A stretch of DNA of 64,000 nucleotides. Origin: Halobacteriales archaeon QS_8_69_26. Lineage in GTDB: Archaea > Halobacteriota > Halobacteria > Halobacteriales > SW-7-71-33. The number at the start of each line of letters is the position of its first letter. Position 1 is the first letter of the stretch. The stretch is from assembly GCA_003023195.1 (NCBI GenBank), contig PXRX01000027.1:34480-98479 (forward strand). Direction: 5' to 3'. A program made the translations under genes and the position numbers. The notes under the pieces are model-generated. The model did no database searches. It was not told the origin of the DNA and was given only the letters and a program-made list of their open reading frames with translations. This document shows, one piece after another, positions 10,151 through 46,800 of the stretch.

Positions 10151-10311
10151 TCCACCGTCATGGCCACTGATCGTCGCTGCCACCGATTCCCCGCCCTGTC
10201 CCCGCGTTTCCGTGCGGGGCGTCTCCGACGCCCCATCCCGTACCATCCGTCCGCTCCCGGGCGTGTCAACCCGGGAGCGCCGTTCGAATGCCTGCCCCAT
10301 CCGCCGCCCGG

Positions 10312-11334
10312 TCAGGTCCCTGGTATCACGTTCGTGACGCTGATCGTCTCGAGCACCATCCAGGCGACGAAGAGGACGTAGACCACCAGTAAGGTGTAGG
10401 ACTCGAGGAGCGAGAGCTTCAGGCCCGTCCGGAGGAACGCGAAGACGACGATAGTCGCCAGGGTCAGAAAGCCCATCAGCGGGACGGCCACCTGGAAGTT
10501 GACGGCGGCGGTGCCGGCGATGAGGACACCCGCGGGGATCGCGACCAGCAGGTCGAAGGTGTTGCTCCCGAGGACGTTGGCGATGGAGGCGACCCCCCGC
10601 TCGTCCTGTGCGGCCCGGAGGCTGACGATGGCGTCGGGCAGCGAGGTGCCGGCGGCCACGATGGTCACCCCCCACAGGAACGACGAGGTGCCGAAGAGGT
10701 CCCGGAAGCCGAGCGCCGCGTCGACGAGGCCCTCGACGGCGATGGCGATGACCACCAGGCTCACGAGGAGCAGGCCCCACTGCTTGCCCGGGGAGACGTC
10801 GGGCGGTTCCGCCTCGGCCTCGTGGTCGGCGACGTCCGCGTACTGGATGAAGACGTACACCCCGTAGAGCAACACCGGCACGGCCGCGAGCGGCCGGGTG
10901 ACGTTGCCCCGTAGCGCATCGCCGTCGGTCGGGTTGTAGATCACCGCCATCGCGAAGACGATGATCAGCGCCGAGACGGCGACCATGTAGAACTGGGCCT
11001 CCTTGTAGACGATGTCGCGGTTGGACTCTATCTCGTCGCCCACGATCCCCGACAGCGCCGGGATCACCAGCAGGTTGAAGATGGCCGACCCGACGATGGC
11101 ACCCACCCCGAGGTCGAACTCGCCGTGGAGCAGGGTGGCGACCACGGTGGTCGACAGTTCCGGGAACGACGACCCCAGGGCGGCGATGAGCGCCCCCTGG
11201 ACCACCAGCGGCAGGCCGTAGTACGACGCCAGTTTGTCGCTGGTCTTCTCGAGCGTCTCGCCTCCCCACCAGATGAACGCCGTCGATACGAGCGCCAGCC
11301 CCGACAGTTCCGCCACGTGCAGTGCGCTCACCAT
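10312..11334 (-). CDS. Sodium/calcium exchanger (CaCA family)
   Basis: 340 aa with about ten membrane helices and the two alpha repeats of the CaCA family: ALGSSFPELSTTVVA with GAIVGSAIFNLLVIPALSG in the first half, and GTSLPDAIVSLRAA with IANVLGSNTFDLLVAIPAG in the second. The Glu and Asp in these repeats coordinate Ca2+/Na+ in characterised exchangers. ATG 11334 (MVSALHVAELSGL) fits the family; the track start at 11571 is in the intergenic region. A TATA-like GCTTAATTCCC in the + sequence at about 11360 lies at the right distance. Confidence 0.92.
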   Translation of the reverse strand: MVSALHVAELSGLALVSTAFIWWGGETLEKTSDKLASYYGLPLVVQGALIAALGSSFPELSTTVVATLLHGEFDLGVGAIVGSAIFNLLVIPALSGIVGDEIESNRDIVYKEAQFYMVAVSALIIVFAMAVIYNPTDGDALRGNVTRPLAAVPVLLYGVYVFIQYADVADHEAEAEPPDVSPGKQWGLLLVSLVVIAIAVEGLVDAALGFRDLFGTSSFLWGVTIVAAGTSLPDAIVSLRAAQDERGVASIANVLGSNTFDLLVAIPAGVLIAGTAAVNFQVAVPLMGFLTLATIVVFAFLRTGLKLSLLESYTLLVVYVLFVAWMVLETISVTNVIPGT

Positions 11335-26957: not shown

Positions 26958-28151
26958 TCACCAGACCGCCTCCCGTCGGTCCATCCAGGTCACCACGGCG
27001 AGGTGGGGGAGCGTGAGGACGGCGATCATGACCAGGTACAGCGCCACGACTTCCGGGAGTCCGCCCGGGGAGTCCGGAACCAGGAGGTACAGGCCGGCAC
27101 ACGTCGCCAGCGAGACGGCCGTCAGGGGCGCGGCGTCCGTCGAGAACTTCGCGAGCGCCCGGCCGGTCCGCCCGTCGCGGAGTGCCGTCGCGGCCCGGTC
27201 GTCCCCGGCCACCAGTCGGACCACGTGGCGCCAGGCGTGCCACAGCGGGAAGTACAGCCCCACCGCGAGCACCGGTGGCACCGTCAGGAAGTACGCCCAC
27301 AGTAGCCCGGTGTCCACGAGGTCCAGCGTCAGCCCCCGGTCGAGGGCGAGGGTGATCCATCCCGGAGTCGCGGCGTCGGCTGTCGCGTCCGCGTCGCCCC
27401 CACCGTCCGAGCGCCCGATCCGGACGGCTCCGCGGAGCAACTGGACGGCGGTCAGGCCGACGAGCGCGGCCGCCAGTACCCGCCGGGTCCCGGGGGCGAA
27501 CGCGGCCGCGAGGGGGTCGGCCGACGCGCCGAACAGGCCGACGAGGTCCGCGACGACCCGCCGGTACTCGCCGGGGAAGGCCACCAGGGGCACCGCCATC
27601 GGCATCGCGCCGCGCACGACGAGGGTGGTCGTCCGGTGGGGGATCGACCGGGGGTAGGTCCCGCCGGTGGCCGCCGAGAGCAGGTAGACGTCGCCCTGGC
27701 CCCAGTGGATCCAGGTGATAGCGACGAACGCCGCGGCGGCCGTGACGGGCGCGACGAACCACCACGCCAGGTAGGCCCCGCCGAGGACCGCGTAGACGGC
27801 CACCACGGCCCCGACCGACCGGCGCAGGGCCACGTCCGAGAGGCGGGCGGGGACGAGGTGGTCGACCGCCCCGTGGGGCATCCCGAACAGGACGGCGCTG
27901 ACGACCAGCGGGACGTACTGGACCCGCCGGGGCACCGACCCCACCAGACCGAGCGCGAACGGGAGGGCCACGACGGCGAGGACCGCCCAGGTCGGGCGGG
28001 TGCCGACCCGCGCTATCGCCCGCCGGAGGACGGGGTCGCTGCCGGCAGTACGGTTCGTCTGGCGGGGGGATCCGGTCGCCGACTCCGGGGCGTCCCCGGT
28101 TGCCGACCCCGGGGTACTCCGGGCCGCCGCCCCAGTGCCGTCCCCGGTCAT
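26958..28151 (-). CDS. brp: Brp/Blh beta-carotene 15,15'-dioxygenase
   Basis: 397-aa membrane protein that cleaves beta-carotene into two retinals. The family's iron-site His motif GMPHGAVDHLVPARLSD is clear, as are TWIHWGQGDVYLL, LWHAWRHVVRLV and LTLPHLAVVTWMD, each carrying further conserved His. About nine helices are predicted. A low-complexity A/G/S/T N-terminus of 45 residues and a D-rich loop (RSDGGGDADATAD) are haloarchaeal elaborations. Its ATG overlaps the lycopene cyclase stop by 4 nt (ATGA), so the two are translationally coupled. It supplies the retinal for the adjacent rhodopsin. Confidence 0.93.
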   Translation of the reverse strand: MTGDGTGAAARSTPGSATGDAPESATGSPRQTNRTAGSDPVLRRAIARVGTRPTWAVLAVVALPFALGLVGSVPRRVQYVPLVVSAVLFGMPHGAVDHLVPARLSDVALRRSVGAVVAVYAVLGGAYLAWWFVAPVTAAAAFVAITWIHWGQGDVYLLSAATGGTYPRSIPHRTTTLVVRGAMPMAVPLVAFPGEYRRVVADLVGLFGASADPLAAAFAPGTRRVLAAALVGLTAVQLLRGAVRIGRSDGGGDADATADAATPGWITLALDRGLTLDLVDTGLLWAYFLTVPPVLAVGLYFPLWHAWRHVVRLVAGDDRAATALRDGRTGRALAKFSTDAAPLTAVSLATCAGLYLLVPDSPGGLPEVVALYLVMIAVLTLPHLAVVTWMDRREAVW

Positions 28152-29086
28152 CGTTCCGAGCGGTACGGACGCGTCTCGAACACCCAGTGGAACAGTACAA
28201 GCCCCTGGACCACCATCAGCGTCGTCACCAGGAAGAACGTCGCCTCCTCCACCGGGAGCCCGGCGACCGTCAGGCCCGTGGACCGGACCGGTTCGATGGT
28301 CCAGAGCCCCCACCCGATCGCCAGGCGGTCTATCGCACAGAGGTAGACCACCGGCGGGCCGACCGCCCACAGGACGTGCCGGCGGACCGACAGGAGGTAG
28401 GTGCCGCCGACGGCCCACTGGAGGCCCAGGACGGGGCCGCCCCAGGCGAGGATCGCACCCAGGTAGTACGTCGGCCCCGACAGGGCGAGGGCGCCGGCGA
28501 CGGTGACGGCCAGGCCCGCCCCACCCCCCAGGAGGACGCCGCGGATCCCTTGCCCTCCGGTCGCCGGATCCGCGTCGGTCCTGGCGTCATCGACACCTGG
28601 TGCGATCCCGGTCGCGTCCGTCCCGGAGTGGTCGAGTCCGCCGTCCGCACGGGCACCGTCCGGACCGGGGTGGGCGGGGTCGCCACCGCCCGGCGCCGCG
28701 TCCGTTCCGGTACCGGCCCTCCGGGCCCCGACCCCGTCGGCGTCCCCTTCCGACGCGGCGCCAGGGAGGGCGGGAAGCGGGAGCGGCCGCCGGTAGAGCC
28801 ATAGCGACGCCAGCAGGGTCTGGAGGGCGACGAACGCGTACTCCTCTATCGGCGCGTTCCACACCCTGAACAGGACCGTCCCCTCCCCGTAGGTCCAGGT
28901 ACCCACCGCGATCAGGTAGTTGTCCCAGGGGGTCGTGTACGACAGCGCCAGGAACAGCATGACCGCGACGCCGGCGACGGCGGTCCGGCGGCGGCCCCGG
29001 TCGATCCCCGGTCCGACCGCGAGGAGGACCGCGACGGGGCCGGCGACGAACGCCGCGAGGAACTCCAGGTACGTCAGCGGGGGCAT
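28148..29086 (-). CDS. crtY: Lycopene beta-cyclase (fused CarR-type heterodimer)
   Basis: 312 aa. Two lycopene-cyclase domains are fused head to tail: the first has WNAPIEEYAFVALQTLLAS, the second AGLPVEEATFFLVTTLMV, both with the PxEE active-site motif. Between them is a linker of about 70 residues very rich in G, A, D and T, which probably extends into the cytoplasm. About seven helices. It cyclises lycopene to beta-carotene, the substrate for Brp downstream. It follows bop by 88 nt on the same strand, and is likely cotranscribed with it. Confidence 0.92.
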   Translation of the reverse strand: MPPLTYLEFLAAFVAGPVAVLLAVGPGIDRGRRRTAVAGVAVMLFLALSYTTPWDNYLIAVGTWTYGEGTVLFRVWNAPIEEYAFVALQTLLASLWLYRRPLPLPALPGAASEGDADGVGARRAGTGTDAAPGGGDPAHPGPDGARADGGLDHSGTDATGIAPGVDDARTDADPATGGQGIRGVLLGGGAGLAVTVAGALALSGPTYYLGAILAWGGPVLGLQWAVGGTYLLSVRRHVLWAVGPPVVYLCAIDRLAIGWGLWTIEPVRSTGLTVAGLPVEEATFFLVTTLMVVQGLVLFHWVFETRPYRSER

Positions 29087-29174: not shown

Positions 29175-29933
29175 TCATGCGGTGTCGGTGGCGGCGGTGA
29201 CGTCGCGTCGCCGGTCGACAGTAGTCCCGGAGCGCAGCACGACGACGCCGAACCCGACCTTCGCGGTCAGGTCCAGGACGGTCAACAGCGCGGTGCCGGC
29301 GACGACCCCGAGGGGGCCGGCCGTCCCCAGGGTGGCGCCGGTCCCGAGGACCCACGCGACGGGGGAGACGACCCACAGGCCGACGACCAGGTTCCGGACG
29401 GTGGTGAACGACCCCTCCGCCGGCCCGGACCGGTGGGCCTGGCGCGTCAGGTCGCCGAGTATCAGCCACAACAGGGCCGCCAGCGAGCACCCCGCGACCC
29501 CGAACAGGAGGACCCGCCAGACCCCGGGACCGATCCCGAGGAGCGGGCCGGCGGTACCGGCCGCCGCACCCCCGACGCCGGCGAGGACCGTCAGGACGTC
29601 GAGGCCAACCAGCGTCGCGACGGTCCGCCGGTCCGCGCCGGCCAGCAGTGCGAGGTCGAACAGCACCAGGGGCGTCGTGAACAGCCAGTCGGCGTACCGC
29701 GCCCAGTAGACCGCTGTCCCGCCGTCCGCGGGCACAGCGGCGAGTCCGGTCCCGAGCGCCATCGAGACGTACGAGGCGACTCCCACGGCGGGAAGGGCGA
29801 CGGTCACCGCCCGGATCCGTCGCTCGCGCGGGGTGGTCGCGTCCCGGCCGAGCCAGCCGACCGCGACGGTCCCCGCCAGCATCCCGACGGCACCGAGTAC
29901 GAGCCACGGCAGTTCGCCCCCGGGCTGACCCAT
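29175..29933 (-). CDS. bop: Bacteriorhodopsin-type light-driven proton pump
   Basis: 252 aa, seven helices. Helix C reads RYADWLFTTPLVLFDLALL: Asp82 and Asp93 occupy the positions of the proton acceptor D85 and donor D96 of Halobacterium bacteriorhodopsin, so it should pump protons rather than chloride or act as a sensor. Helix G has VLDLTAKVGFGVVVL with the retinal-binding Lys225. The start ATG 29933 (MGQPGGELPWLVLG) leaves a very short N-terminal tail. A Bat-type UAS lies 37-52 nt upstream. The genes for its chromophore (crtY, brp) and regulator (bat) adjoin it on the same strand. Confidence 0.95.
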   Translation of the reverse strand: MGQPGGELPWLVLGAVGMLAGTVAVGWLGRDATTPRERRIRAVTVALPAVGVASYVSMALGTGLAAVPADGGTAVYWARYADWLFTTPLVLFDLALLAGADRRTVATLVGLDVLTVLAGVGGAAAGTAGPLLGIGPGVWRVLLFGVAGCSLAALLWLILGDLTRQAHRSGPAEGSFTTVRNLVVGLWVVSPVAWVLGTGATLGTAGPLGVVAGTALLTVLDLTAKVGFGVVVLRSGTTVDRRRDVTAATDTA

Positions 29934-29969
29934 ACTACCGGCTTCGAGACGTAGTACGAAAAGCGGACC

Positions 29970-29985
29970 ACCCAACTGGTTGGGG
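29970..29985 (-). promoter_or_regulatory. bop upstream activator sequence (UAS)
   Basis: ACCCAACTGGTTGGGG contains perfect 6-bp inverted arms CCCAAC/GTTGGG. It agrees with the Halobacterium bop UAS consensus as I remember it (A-C-C-n-n-ACTAG-TT-n-G-G) except for one central base. It lies 37-52 nt before the bop start, close to the classical position. A TATA-like CTTTTCGTA follows, at about -22 to -30. Confidence 0.75.
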
Positions 29986-30064: not shown

Positions 30065-32203
30065 CTACGGCCGCGACTCCGAGAGGCCGTCCAGCACCGC
30101 ACCGACGAGTTTGCGCTCGGCCGCCCGGAGGTGCTGGTGGAACGTCGACCGGGAGACGCCCATCGACTCGGCGAGTTCGTCGCCGCTGGTGGTGCGCGGC
30201 CAGTCGTAGTAGCCGCTGACGTAGGCCTTCTGGAGCGCCGTCAACTGTCGCTCGGTGAGCCGGTCCCGGAGTTCGGTGATGAACTCGCCCTTCGTGGCCG
30301 GCGGGCGTTCGCGCTCGCGGTAGGTGACGAGTTCGGCGTCGTAGCGGTCGGTCACCAGGTCGACCACCGACCGGGCGACCGACTCGTGGGGCGCCTCGAC
30401 GCCGAGGCGACCGACCCCGTCCTGGGCCGACATCTCGCGGGTCTCGGCGCCGTAGTCGGCCAGTTCGGCAAGGATCGACCGCGCCGTGGTGGCGAACTCG
30501 AACAGCGTCTCGTCGTCGGACTCGCTGATGAGCGTGGCCCGCTCGATGTCGTCGTGGCTCTCGGCGGCCGCCAGGACCGCCTCCGGGTCGGCCCCCTCGA
30601 CGGCGAAGAACACGAGCAGTTCCTCGTCCGGGCGGGAGACGGAGCCGACGTGCTCGAACCGGGCGCCCACGTCGTCGGAGAGGCCGACGAAGAACAGGTC
30701 GGGGTCGCGGGTCTCGAACTCGACGGAGACGACGTTCTCGGCGGTGATGATGGCCTTGGTTTCGGTGGCGTTGATGGCGGTGGCGATCATCCGCCCGAGC
30801 GCCGCCAGCACCGCCCGTTCGCGCTCGTCCACCGCCTCGGCCTCCTCGGCGTAGACGACCAGCACCCCGTAGGAGGTGTCGCGGTAGACTAGGGGGACGA
30901 CCGCCGCCGGTTCGGGATCGCCACCGACGTCCCCCCACTCGATGTCGCCGTCGACCGGCTGGAGTTCGCCGGTCGCGACCGCCCTGGCGATCGGTCCGTC
31001 GCCGTCGACCCGGATCGTCGGCTCGTCCCCGGGCAGGTCCAGTCCGGCGTCGGTGACCGGCGTGACCGCGTCGCCGGCCAGGTCGAGTTCCCCGACCCAC
31101 GCGCCGACGAAGGGCGGGGTCCGGGCTATCTGGTCGCAGATCCGCTGGTCTATCTCCCGACGGGTGGTGGCCCCGACCAGCGTCTCGGTGACGTCCCGGA
31201 CCAGGCCGTTGACCCGGTCCAGGATCCGCTCCAGGGCGGCCCGCTCCTCGTCGAGTTGGGCCGCGTAGCGCTCGACCGCGAACTCGGCGCGCTTCCGGGC
31301 GGTGACGTCGGTCTGGAAGCCCACGTAGTGGGTCACCTCCCCCGCCTCGTTGCGCAACGGGGCGATGTCCACCTTGTTCCAGAACTTCTCGCCGTCCTTG
31401 CGGTAGTTGACCAGTTCCACCGAGACCGGTTCCTCGGCGTCGATGGCCTCGGCCATCTCGCGGATCGGTCCACGGGCGGTCTCCTCGCCCTGGAGGAACC
31501 GGCAGTTCGTGCCGAGCACCTCCTCGCGGGAGTAGCCGGTCGTCCGCTCGAAGGCGTCGTTGACGTAGATGAGCGGGTTGTCCGGCAGGGACGGGTCGGA
31601 GATGGTGATGCCGACGGGCGCCTCGTCCATCGCCCGCTCCTTCAACTCGAACTGTACCTCGTCGGGAACGTGCACGCCGGCGGGGACCTCCCCGCCGCGC
31701 TCGGAGGTCTCGACGCCGCCGACCCCGGAGTCGTCGCCGGACTGCTCCGTCCCCTCGGCCGGACCGCCGGAGTCACCGCCCGTTCCGGCGGCCTCCCTCG
31801 TCCCGCCGGACTTCGCCAGCGTCGCGACCGACCCCACCCGGGCGGCCCGTTCGACTCGCCGGACGAGTTCGCGGATCCCGTCCCCGTCGCGGGGGACGTA
31901 CTCGGTGACCCCGGCCGCCACCGCCTCGCCGGCCAGTACCTCGCTCCCATCCTCCGGGTAGAGTACGACCGGGAGGTCGGGCCGGCGCTCGCGGACCCGT
32001 TCGAGGAACTCGATGCCGTCCAGCCCGGGTGGCCGGTGCCCGCTCACCGCACAGTCCACCCCGTCGATGCGCTCCAGCGCCTCCTGTGGGTCGGTCACGG
32101 TCGTGACCCGGATGGGAACGGGTCCCCCCTCCGACTCGAGGGCGGCGGCGGTCGCCTCCAGTAGCCCCTCGTCCGGGTCCACGAGGAGCACACGGTTCGC
32201 CAT
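30065..32203 (-). CDS. bat: Bat: bacterio-opsin activator with LOV domain
   Basis: 712 aa. Order: receiver-like domain (1-120), D/G-rich linker (130-180), LOV-type PAS domain (about 185-305), GAF domain (about 330-470), bacterioopsin-activator domain, and HTH_10 DNA-binding domain at the C-terminus (TERQLTALQKAYVSGYYDWP). The LOV signature is complete: GTNCRFLQGEE with photoactive Cys234, NYRKDGEKFWN, and GFQTDVT. The receiver lacks its phospho-acceptor: the site reads AVSGHRPPG with Gly55. Start ATG 32203. Bat activates bop in Halobacterium in response to low oxygen and light; here it lies 131 nt upstream of bop on the same strand. Confidence 0.93.
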   Translation of the reverse strand: MANRVLLVDPDEGLLEATAAALESEGGPVPIRVTTVTDPQEALERIDGVDCAVSGHRPPGLDGIEFLERVRERRPDLPVVLYPEDGSEVLAGEAVAAGVTEYVPRDGDGIRELVRRVERAARVGSVATLAKSGGTREAAGTGGDSGGPAEGTEQSGDDSGVGGVETSERGGEVPAGVHVPDEVQFELKERAMDEAPVGITISDPSLPDNPLIYVNDAFERTTGYSREEVLGTNCRFLQGEETARGPIREMAEAIDAEEPVSVELVNYRKDGEKFWNKVDIAPLRNEAGEVTHYVGFQTDVTARKRAEFAVERYAAQLDEERAALERILDRVNGLVRDVTETLVGATTRREIDQRICDQIARTPPFVGAWVGELDLAGDAVTPVTDAGLDLPGDEPTIRVDGDGPIARAVATGELQPVDGDIEWGDVGGDPEPAAVVPLVYRDTSYGVLVVYAEEAEAVDERERAVLAALGRMIATAINATETKAIITAENVVSVEFETRDPDLFFVGLSDDVGARFEHVGSVSRPDEELLVFFAVEGADPEAVLAAAESHDDIERATLISESDDETLFEFATTARSILAELADYGAETREMSAQDGVGRLGVEAPHESVARSVVDLVTDRYDAELVTYRERERPPATKGEFITELRDRLTERQLTALQKAYVSGYYDWPRTTSGDELAESMGVSRSTFHQHLRAAERKLVGAVLDGLSESRP

Positions 32204-32991: not shown

Positions 32992-34437
32992 GTGTTCGAG
33001 GGCGTCGGCGACGGCCGGGCGCTCGCGGAAGCGATCCCGGACGGCGTGGCGGTCCACCGGGACGGGGCGTTCGTCTACGTCAACGACGCCGCCGTCGAGG
33101 TGCTCGGCGCGCGGTCCCGCGAGGACCTGGTCGGCCGGCCGGTCGCCTCGGTCGTCGACGTCCCCGGGGACGACTGCGTCGAAGAATCCTTCGCCGAGGT
33201 CCGGAGCGGCGAACGCTCGATCCAGCGGATCGAGTACAGCTTCGAACCGTCCGACGGCGAGGTCCGCCACGTCGAGTGGCGGATCACGACGACCGACTGG
33301 CAGGGCGAACGGTCGCTCCTCTCGGTCATCAGGGACGTCACCGACCACCGCCGTGCCGAGCGGGACCTCCGCGAAACCACCCAGACCCTGGAAGCGCTAG
33401 TCGAGGCCTCGCCCGCAGCGATCATCGCCATCGACGTCGACGGCCGGGTCGAACTCTGGAACCCGGCCGCCGAATCGATCTTCGGCTGGTCCGCCGAGGA
33501 GGTGATCGGCGAGCCGAACCCGATCGTCCCCGAGGACCGGACGCGGGAGTACGACGACCACCTCGAACGGGTCGTGGAGGGCGAACGGGTCACGGGCGTG
33601 GAAACCCGTCGACGGACCAAGAGCGGCGAGGACGTCGACGTCAGCCTCTCGACGGCGGCGATGGAGGACGGCGACGGCGAGCTAGTCGGCCTCATGGCCG
33701 TCGTCAAGGACATCAGCGAGCGCCGCGAGCGCAAGCGACAGCTCCGCCGCCAGAACGAGCGCCTCGAACAGTTCGCCAGCATCGTCAGTCACGACCTCAG
33801 GAACCCGATAGAGGCCGCGACCGGCCACCTGGAACTGCTGTGTGCCAAGCACGACCTGGACGGCGACGACGACGTGGAGGGACTGGCGACCATGCTCGAA
33901 CGGATGGACGACATCGTCGACGACGTCCTGGCGCTGGCACGGCTCGGCGAGTCCACCGTCGAGACGGAGCCCGTCTCCCTGAACGACGTCGCACTCGACG
34001 CCTGGAGCGCGGTCGGACCGGACGCCGACGCCCAGTTGACCGTCGAGGGCGACGCGGTCGTCGAGGCCGACCGGAGCCGACTGCAGCAGTTGCTGGAGAA
34101 CCTCCTCCGTAACTCGCTCGAACACGCCGGTCCGGACGTCTCGGTCCGGATCGGGCTCGTGCCGGCTGGATCGGAGGGGAACGACGACGGGGCGACCGGC
34201 TTCTTCGTCGCCGACGACGGTCCCGGTATCGACCCGGAGGACCGCGACGCGGTCCGCGAACGGGGCTACTCGACGACCGAGACGGGGGCCGGGTTCGGAC
34301 TGGCCATCGTCGAGGAGATCGCTCGCGCGCACGGCTGGTCCGTCGGGGTCACCGACGCGACCGACGGGGGCGCTCGCTTCGAGTTCCGTCCCGAGGACGC
34401 CCCGAGGTCGCACTCCGGGACCGACCCGACACACTGA
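32992..34437 (+). CDS. Soluble PAS-PAS histidine kinase
   Basis: 481 aa, GTG start preceded by a good ribosome-binding sequence (GGAGGGGG). Two PAS domains (about 10-120 and 130-248) end in the usual VIRDVTDHRRAE and VVKDISERRERK linkers. Phospho-His267 lies in SIVSHDLRNPIEAATGH. HATPase boxes: ENLLRNSLEH, DDGPGIDPED, TGAGFGLAIVEEI. No membrane helix, no receiver. The same architecture as the kinase at 3021 but without the receiver. A TATA-like GCTTAATCC near 32930 suggests a leadered transcript of about 30 nt. Confidence 0.9.
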   Translation: MFEGVGDGRALAEAIPDGVAVHRDGAFVYVNDAAVEVLGARSREDLVGRPVASVVDVPGDDCVEESFAEVRSGERSIQRIEYSFEPSDGEVRHVEWRITTTDWQGERSLLSVIRDVTDHRRAERDLRETTQTLEALVEASPAAIIAIDVDGRVELWNPAAESIFGWSAEEVIGEPNPIVPEDRTREYDDHLERVVEGERVTGVETRRRTKSGEDVDVSLSTAAMEDGDGELVGLMAVVKDISERRERKRQLRRQNERLEQFASIVSHDLRNPIEAATGHLELLCAKHDLDGDDDVEGLATMLERMDDIVDDVLALARLGESTVETEPVSLNDVALDAWSAVGPDADAQLTVEGDAVVEADRSRLQQLLENLLRNSLEHAGPDVSVRIGLVPAGSEGNDDGATGFFVADDGPGIDPEDRDAVRERGYSTTETGAGFGLAIVEEIARAHGWSVGVTDATDGGARFEFRPEDAPRSHSGTDPTH

Positions 34438-43894: not shown

Positions 43895-46800
43895 TCAGGC
43901 CCGGTCGCTCCCGACGGGGCCGGCGTCGAACACCACCGACATGAGTTCCTTCTGTGACTTCCGGAGGTGGTTGTGCAGCGTCGCGGAGGTGATCCCCATC
44001 GAGTCCGCGACCTCCTCGGCGGTCGCCTCGCGGGGCCACTCGAAGTACCCCGAGAGGTAGGCCGTCCGGAGCGCCATCAGCCGTCGCTCGGTGAGCCGTT
44101 CCTCCAGGCTCTCGCGCAGGTCCGCCGCCGTGCGGACGGGACGGTCCAGGTCCCGCGTGGCGACCAGTTCGGCCCGGTCGAGCAGCGACGCGATGCGGTC
44201 GACGACCCCGCGGGCGTCGACCGACTGGGGAACCTCGACGGTGAGGTGGGTCGTACCGTTGGTGGCGACCGCCTCGGTCACCGCCGCCCCGGCGTCCAGG
44301 GCGGTCCGGATGGAGGACCTGCCGGTCGAGTCCAGCTCGACGCGACCCCCGTTCTCCGTCTCGCTGAGCACCCGGGCGTCCGCGAGGCCCTCGAACCTGT
44401 CGATCATCCCGGCCAGCGCGGCCGGCGAGGCACCCTCGACCGAGACGTACAGCAGGGAGTTCTCGTCCTCGTGGACGGTGTAGCCGTCCAGGGCCACCGT
44501 ACAGTCGAGTTCGGCGGAGGCCTTCGCGAGGAAGGCGTCGTGGCTCTCGACGGTGAACTCCAGTTCGGTGACGGTGTCCGCGACCAGCAACTTGCGGTTC
44601 CCGATGGCGTTGAGGACGAACCCCACCGTCTCGCCGAGGGTGCGGAACCCGTCCTGTTCGCGCTCGCTGAACGCCGCCGGGCTGTCGGCGTAGACGACGA
44701 GGAGGCCGTAGACGGCGTCGCCGTGGACCAGCGGAACCGCGGCCGCCGAGCGGAAGCCCCGTTCCTCTGCGGCCGACCGCCACGGCTCGAACTCCGGCAC
44801 CTCGGCGACGTCCTCGACGACCTGCACCTCGCCGCTCCGGAGGGCCCGCCCGCCGGGGCCCTTCCCGGGCACGACGCCGTCGTCGGCCAGGTCGTCGAGG
44901 AACCCCTCGCCCTCACCCGCCGACGCCCGGGGAACGACCCGTTCCCCGTCGACGTCCCGCTCTCCGATCCACGCGAACCGGTAGAAGTCCGAGTCCGCCA
45001 GCCGTTCACAGACGGTCTCCTCGACGTCCGACCGTGAGGGGGCGTCGGACAGCACCCGGGTGGTGTTCAACAGGAGCTCGTTGATCCGGTTCAGCGTCGC
45101 CAGTTCGTCGCGCTGGCGCTGGCGTTCCCGCTCGCGCTCCTTGCGCTCGGTGATGTCGACGTAGATGCCGATGGACTCGACGGGCTCGGCCTCGTCGTCG
45201 AACGGGAGGCTCCGGAACAGGAAGTCCCGCTCCCCGTCGGCCGCCAGCCGCCTGACCTCGCGGTCGATCTCCGACAGGTTCCGGCCCAGGCGGTTGATCT
45301 CCCTGGCCCCCTCCTGCGCCTCCGTGTCCTCGGGGACCACGTACTCGTCGATGTCCTCGCCGACGACCTCCTCGGCGTCGTGGCCGAAGGTCCGCTCGAA
45401 CGCCGAGTTGACGTTGCGCACGATGGGGTCGTCGCCGTCGAACTCGGCGTGGACGACCGGCTCGGGGATCGACTCGAACAGCGTCGTGAACCGGTCGCGT
45501 TCCCGGCGGACCTCCCGCTCGCGTTCGATCCGGTCCAGGGCCGTCTCCACGTGGGCCGCCAGGATCGCCAGGGTGTCGAAGTCCTCGTCGGCGTACTCGT
45601 CGGCCCCCGGGTCCGCGGCACCGATCACGCCGTGGTCGCCAAGCGGGAACATCATCGCCCGGCCGATGTCGCTCTCGGTGTCGGGGTGGGCCTCGTTGAC
45701 GTCGATGGTGTCGGGTTCGCCCGCCCGGAATATCTCCCACTCGGGGTCGCCCTCGGCGAACTCGAGGTCCCCGGCATTGTGCCCCGTCGCCGGGACCAGT
45801 GCCCCCCGTTCCGGGTCGTGCAGCCAGCAGGCGGTGTGGTCCCAGCCGAGGATCTCGTGGGCCGCCTCGACCCCTCGCCGGCAGGCCTCCTGGGGCGTCC
45901 TGGCCCGCTGGATGACGTCGGTCGTCTCGTGGAGCGCCGCCAGGAGGTGTTCGCGCTCCTTGCGGTCGGTCACGTCGTTGACCACCACCTGGGCCGCCGG
46001 TTCGCCCTCGAAGACGACCGGCGCGACAGCCGCGACCGCAACCCGGTCGCCCTCGTCGCCGAACCGGAGTTCCGCGGGCGGGGCCACCTTGTCCTGTTCG
46101 ACCGTCCGCCGCACCGTCTCGACGGCCGGGCCGCGGTCCTCCGGGTGGACGAACGACCCGCCGTCCTCGCCGATGAGTTCCCCTGGACTGTCGGCGTCGA
46201 GGTAGTCCGCCGTGGCGGCGTTGCAGTAGCGGATCGTCGCGTCCCCGTCGAGGATCACGATCGGAACCGGGGCGTTCTCGACCAGGGTCCGGTACCGCTC
46301 CTTGCTGCGCCTGAACTCGCGTTCGCGCTCGATGCGGGCCAGGGCCGTCTCCACGTGGGCCGCCAGGATCGCCAGGGTGTCGAACGCCTCGTCGGCGTAC
46401 TCCTCCGCCTCCGGCGCCGCCGCACCGAGGGCGCCGTGATCGCCCAGGGGGAACAGCACGCCCACCGTCCCCTCGTCGATGTCCGGGCGGTCGCCGAGTT
46501 CGAGGACCCCGGGGTCGCCCTCCCGGAAGATTTCCCACTCCTCGTCGCCCTCGCCGAACCGCCGCCGGGTGGCCTCGTGGCCCGCGACCGGGACGAGTTC
46601 CGCCGCCGCCCGGTCGTGGCGCCAGCAGCCCACGACCGGCCAGTCGAGTATCTCGGTAGCCGCCTCGACCGCCCACCGGTACACCTCCTGGTCCGTCGTC
46701 GCCCGCTGGATGGCGTCGGTCGCCTCGTGGAGCGACGCCAGGAGGCGCTCGCGTTCCTCTCGCTCGGCCATCTGTCGGCCGACGCCCACGCGGTATCGGT

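Follow-up and report, generated by a model that had tools for sequence, protein, structure and literature searches.

The window analysed here, a stretch of 64,000 nucleotides from a salt-loving archaeon of the Halobacteriales, encodes a Bat transcription activator of 712 amino acids (bat, 30065-32203 on the minus strand, with its ATG at 32203) next to bop, the gene of a light-driven proton pump, and we read this protein, with somewhat more confidence than doubt, as a one-component activator responding to blue light and redox state and carrying a structural pseudo-receiver. The domain order is REC, LOV, GAF, BAT and HTH_10 (Pfam Response_reg, PAS, GAF_2, BAT and HTH_10), with all domains on the minus strand: the receiver domain at residues 4-114 (31862-32194; Response_reg at residues 5-107, 37.3 bits against a cutoff of 30.2), the LOV domain at 188-303 (31295-31642), a long helix at 301-344 (31172-31303) that is a candidate signalling coiled coil to GAF, the GAF domain at 346-477 (30773-31168), the BAT domain at 490-641 (30281-30736) and HTH_10, the DNA-binding domain, at 649-700 (30104-30259). 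BAT (PF15915) and HTH_10 (PF04967) scored 142.7 and 83.4 bits against curated cut-offs of 25.8 and 23.1, which places the protein in the Bat family. The architecture is ordinary and, with its LOV cysteine, the protein belongs to a class already described: Mandalari et al. (2014; PMC4844311) report 167 archaeal LOV proteins, many of them RR/GAF/PAS-LOV-HTH and none studied, and the window Bat fits their RR/GAF/PAS-LOV-GAF-HTH proteins with a canonical LOV Cys. On the other side of bat, a PAS-PAS-histidine kinase (32992-34437, plus strand), divergent from the ferredoxin-bat side, is a possible neighbouring signalling gene.

The LOV domain carries the motifs GTNCRFLQ ... NYRKDGEKFWN ... GFQTD, with Cys234 (codon TGC, 31502-31504, minus strand) as the candidate flavin-adduct cysteine. 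Its best matches were the LOV domains of YtvA and the phototropins (3e-33, phmmer), it aligned without gaps to the oat phototropin LOV2 over 103 residues, and Foldseek identified a LOV fold with TM scores to the target of 0.93-0.96 and an rmsd of 0.6-0.8 Å to 3t50, 6ph2 and 9vf7; this closeness to the known photoreceptors YtvA, phototropin and Brucella LOV-HK favours the blue-light reading. The YtvA and phototropin LOV domains share with the window protein the fold and the GxNCRFLQ photoactive site, at 41-46% identity over the matched structures, but unlike the window Bat they act on STAS or kinase effectors and not as transcription activators. The flavin-pocket contacts are N233, C234, R235, L237, Q238, N266, N276, G295 and Q297, so that the adduct Cys is accompanied by the Asn/Asn/Gln set expected of a LOV photoreceptor (N233, N266, N276, Q297). 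The signature had originally been predicted to be full, and while the motif is real this wording was slightly too strong: of the two phosphate-contacting arginines of AsLOV2 (R451 and R467), R235 is present and A251 takes the place of R467, which we take to be one of the two phosphate-binding Arg of oat LOV2. Both arginines are common in LOV photoreceptors and are not known to be strictly required, and Ala occupies the A251 position in 19 other Cys-bearing Bat entries; this replacement nevertheless weakens the blue-light reading, since the flavin affinity may be low. Residue 218, which is Phe in the window Bat, is Trp in 8 of 8 Pro-type Bats and in none of the 121 Cys-type entries, and this Trp matches, by residue offset, the flavin-quenching Trp of the Halorubrum Bat (PMC4682037). 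Judged by C234, N233, R235, Q238, N266, N276, Q297 and F218, the pocket is photochemically plausible, and the presence of the pocket residues together with the lack of Trp at 218 argues for a response to blue light. The same reading is favoured by the fact that no LOV domain other than that of Bat was found at E ≤ 1e-6 in the same genome (87% complete). A second Bat-like paralogue lies in the window (43922-45433, minus strand; 35% identity over query residues 208-706), and its PAS domain was missed by the genome LOV search. Viral contigs gave LOV-domain matches only, at 34-46% identity, none of them shown to be Bat.

Across 394 Halobacteriales genomes the LOV Cys was present in 121 of 142 Bat-like entries, and it is therefore the majority state of Bats; among the 41 bop-linked Bats, defined by an adjoining gene with more than 100 bits to the window opsin, the position was Cys in 34, His in 5 and Pro in 2. 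In 16 close pairs the median dN/dS was 0.12 for LOV, 0.14 for BAT-HTH, 0.23 for GAF and 0.26 for REC, and both the retention of Cys and the low value of LOV favour the blue-light reading. In a tree built from the LOV-to-HTH region and rooted only at its midpoint, three changes suffice to explain the presence or absence of Cys, and both the His clade and the Pro clade have sisters that bear Cys, so that the loss of Cys is probably derived; the Cys state is probably ancestral, mainly because YtvA and the phototropins agree with it. Tree tests linking Cys, REC and bop linkage rested on 3-10 independent pairs and were underpowered. The H. salinarum (His) and Halorubrum (Pro) Bats fall in two Cys-less clades that are probably derived. 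One surveyed genome has a bop product identical to H. salinarum BR (100% over 260 residues), and its Bat (L172) has NHRF in LOV and, where the receiver Asp would stand, Val, in agreement with the Cys-less H. salinarum Bat described by Mandalari et al. (2014; PMC4844311). Two genomes have two bop-linked Bats each (L132/L142 and L162/L167), one Cys-bearing and without receiver, the other with NHRF, a degenerate receiver and an adjoining H. salinarum-type opsin. In the closest relative, L054 (7441-9936 and 9940-10911), crtY and brp come immediately after bat and a bop gene is missing from between them. The Bat of L054 has retained the receiver-site Asp but carries Arg at the position of Gln297, and this Arg weakens the blue-light reading.

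The H. salinarum Bat (VNG1464G) shares with the window protein the domain order, a divergent N-terminal REC, a UAS-type promoter and retinal genes nearby, but it has His (NHRF) and Val where the window Bat has Cys234 and Gly55; it regulates bop, as the window Bat probably does too. Bat-LOV* of Halorubrum hochstenium (PMC4682037) likewise has a REC-LOV-GAF-HTH order and the conserved flavin-pocket Asn/Gln, with Pro and the quenching Trp in place of Cys234 and Phe218. Yee et al. (2015; PMC4682037) found that this Pro-type LOV binds flavin, with modest loading, and changes its conformation on reduction, and a Cys introduced into it formed no 390-nm adduct, which weakens the blue-light reading; a direct light response of Bat had been suggested earlier and is discussed in the same paper. 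Low-oxygen induction in H. salinarum is mediated by Bat (PMC2253796), and the pocket Asn/Gln are kept in the Cys-less clades too, making Cys-free flavin sensing plausible in the family. Together with the conformational shift on flavin reduction, these observations speak for the window Bat being mainly a flavin redox or oxygen sensor, as proposed for Cys-less Bats, with light a minor or accidental input despite Cys234. We consider this a serious rival reading but rather doubtful, as a pure redox sensor needs no Cys and the residue is found in most Bats across the order, in a domain under strong constraint.

The degenerate state of the receiver emerged when Bat was aligned to canonical receivers encoded by its own genome, an alignment in which VDDD ... 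VVSDY ... F/YTGKGSE ... YLxK corresponds in Bat to VDPDE ... AVSGH ... YPEDGSE ... YVPR. Four of the five catalytic residues are gone, their positions being taken by P10 (loss of the second pocket acid), G55, P83 and R105, and D9 alone remains. The original prediction of Gly55 in place of the phospho-acceptor Asp is borne out (codon GGG, 32039-32041, minus strand); the conserved Lys that it reported as missing in LYPEDGSE is also lost, but at R105, while LYPEDGSE marks the loss of Thr/Ser (P83). LYPEDGSE was rejected as the catalytic Lys site, as the K of TGKGSE elsewhere is not catalytic and the true Lys aligns with R105, and a sequencing error was rejected as the source of Gly55, because two bases would have to change to turn an Asp codon (GAC or GAT) into GGG. 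The fold is kept, the isolated domain being modelled at pLDDT 93 with a TM of about 0.8 to receivers and a Foldseek probability of 1.0, and the DD pair, Asp, Thr/Ser and Lys set of a phosphorylatable receiver is lacking; from its sequence, the view that this domain would be unable to use the normal Asp phosphorylation chemistry is supported.

The receiver site was also compared across other Bats, a check proposed at the outset: none of 68 Halobacteriales Bat receivers (the window Bat counted in and a canonical non-LOV, Bat-like control, L186, left out) keeps all five catalytic residues, Asp being found in 14 and Lys in 12, and all five are present in the control. The pairing of a dead receiver with a LOV photosensor, which had seemed a notable combination, is thus a family-wide trait, given these counts and the Cys in most bop-linked Bats, and was rejected as anything special; because the receiver loss is family-wide, it is no clue special to the window Bat. 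Galperin et al. (2018; PMC5847659) recognised the N-terminal REC of the BAT family as divergent, as it is here, and termed its role obscure; the counts given above extend this to a residue-level loss across the family. According to the dN/dS values, the dead receiver is maintained under selection, yet REC is the least constrained domain and LOV the most. The receiver site of two very close Bat relatives, L068 and L069, is Asp in one and Glu in the other, an indication that this site drifts. The kept fold and the purifying selection would also suit a receiver whose contact with a partner or kinase gates Bat independently of phosphorylation, as the main input, with LOV only tuning; Glu, the most frequent residue in place of Asp (29 of 69 entries), could be a fixed 'on' mimic. 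This is unlikely in our judgement, since REC is absent from many Bat homologues, several bop-linked ones included, it is the least constrained domain, and the residue at the Asp site varies widely (E, D, A, T, V, G, S, I, R).

The genes bat-bop-crtY-brp run in a single direction on the minus strand, with bat directly upstream of bop. The bop gene (29175-29933) encodes a deltarhodopsin/BR-II-like opsin, in which RYADWLFTTPLVLFDL and DLTAKVGFG hold proton-pump residues of the BR type; its nearest solved structures are deltarhodopsin and BR-II, and the pump motifs RYADWLFTTP...D and the retinal Lys are kept. It is followed by crtY, for lycopene cyclase (28148-29086), and brp/blh, for beta-carotene 15,15'-dioxygenase (26958-28418); the true start of the latter probably lies well inside this frame, and homology spans about the last 315 residues. 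The predicted bop UAS proved real: a matrix scan placed the near-palindrome CCAACCAGTTGGGTG at 29969-29983 (minus strand), -50 to -36 from the bop ATG, and none of 2000 shuffles scored as well. The matrix, with the consensus CCAACTAGTTGGGTA, was built from the bop upstream regions of other loci, and sites, starting mostly 51-56 nt before the ATG, were found in 35 of 42 such regions, while shuffled sequences gave a mean of 1.5. The bop UAS consensus of H. salinarum has the form ACCcnactagTTnG, which fits the sites found here. The window locus therefore combines bop, retinal genes and a UAS, the linkage expected of the Bat family. A second, unlinked bop, whose product shares about 67-70% identity with H. 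salinarum BR, lies on contig C8 of the same genome (L203, 9339-10136, minus strand), preceded by a UAS of the same type, CAAACTAGTTGGGCA (10174-10188, minus strand, ending 37 nt before the ATG); no LOV-type Bat was found near it. Beside it, a divergent gene (10458-10796, plus strand) encodes a small CPxC zinc-type protein. The conservation of the UAS and its presence at the second bop favour reading Bat as an activator.

Whereas in H. salinarum brp-bat is divergent from bop and brz and brb are present, no match to Brz was found in the genome of the window Bat, a weak negative. In H. salinarum, Bat, Brz and Brb are all required for bop to be induced by light (Tarasov et al., 2011; PMC3184054). 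This takes place despite a Cys-less Bat, so that light induction there needs no Cys (PMC3184054, PMC4844311), which weakens the blue-light reading of the window Bat. The requirement for Brz and Brb, the A251 replacement and the precedent of modest flavin loading in Halorubrum (PMC4682037) would agree with a window LOV that is flavin-poor or uncoupled, bop being set by the level of Bat or by other factors, e.g., Brz-like zinc proteins; the otherwise canonical pocket and the unmatched Brz make this quite improbable.

The type of LOV was compared with the type of opsin. Sixteen loci with a LOV-type Bat in the stretch examined encode an opsin with 57% or more identity to H. salinarum BR, and in every one of them the Bat lacks the Cys (7 have His and 9 Pro), while the opsins adjoining Cys-bearing bop-linked Bats are 44-55% identical to it, and the window opsin 37%. 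This 16/16 pairing amounts to about two events in two clades and is not a set of independent cases. In a fragment, L198, an NHRF Bat stands beside a 38% opsin, so a Cys-less Bat can also adjoin a distant opsin. The window genome is a mixture: its Cys-bearing Bat adjoins an opsin of its own type, and the unlinked H. salinarum-type bop has no adjacent Bat. The accessible text of Mandalari et al. (2014; PMC4844311) does not tie LOV type to opsin type, and no published link was found in the literature covered, which omits most subscription journals; what the present comparison newly adds is the conserved UAS before bop, the second bop with the same UAS and the Cys-less/opsin pairing. Tentatively, and with more doubt than belief, haloarchaeal Bats might be divided into a light type (Cys, with deltarhodopsin/BR-II-like bop-crtY-brp) and a redox type (His or Pro, with H. 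salinarum-type bacteriorhodopsin), in which case what is known from Halobacterium and Halorubrum would describe two derived Cys-less exceptions and the light-type Bat of the window would drive both opsins through the same UAS.

In the mechanism that we propose, the flavin bound by LOV would absorb blue light and Cys234 would form the C4a adduct; the change would travel by way of the Q297 region and the helix at 301-344 to reach GAF, BAT and HTH_10. On binding the UAS, HTH_10 would activate bop together with crtY and brp, and probably also the second bop, which is unlinked. The same flavin would probably be modulated by oxygen or redox state. The phospho-dead pseudo-receiver, a reading favoured by the kept fold and the loss of its catalytic residues, may be retained for folding or for dimer or partner contacts.

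How bacteriorhodopsin is switched by light and oxygen has been an open question for decades, and the input of Bat has been studied in proteins without the LOV cysteine. A Cys-bearing LOV beside bop, the majority state and unlike the studied Halobacterium and Halorubrum Bats, allows a clean test. If the Cys-bearing majority of Bats are blue-light switches, the question could be tested by a single point mutation in such a protein, which would also provide an archaeal light-gated activator whose UAS is short and defined.
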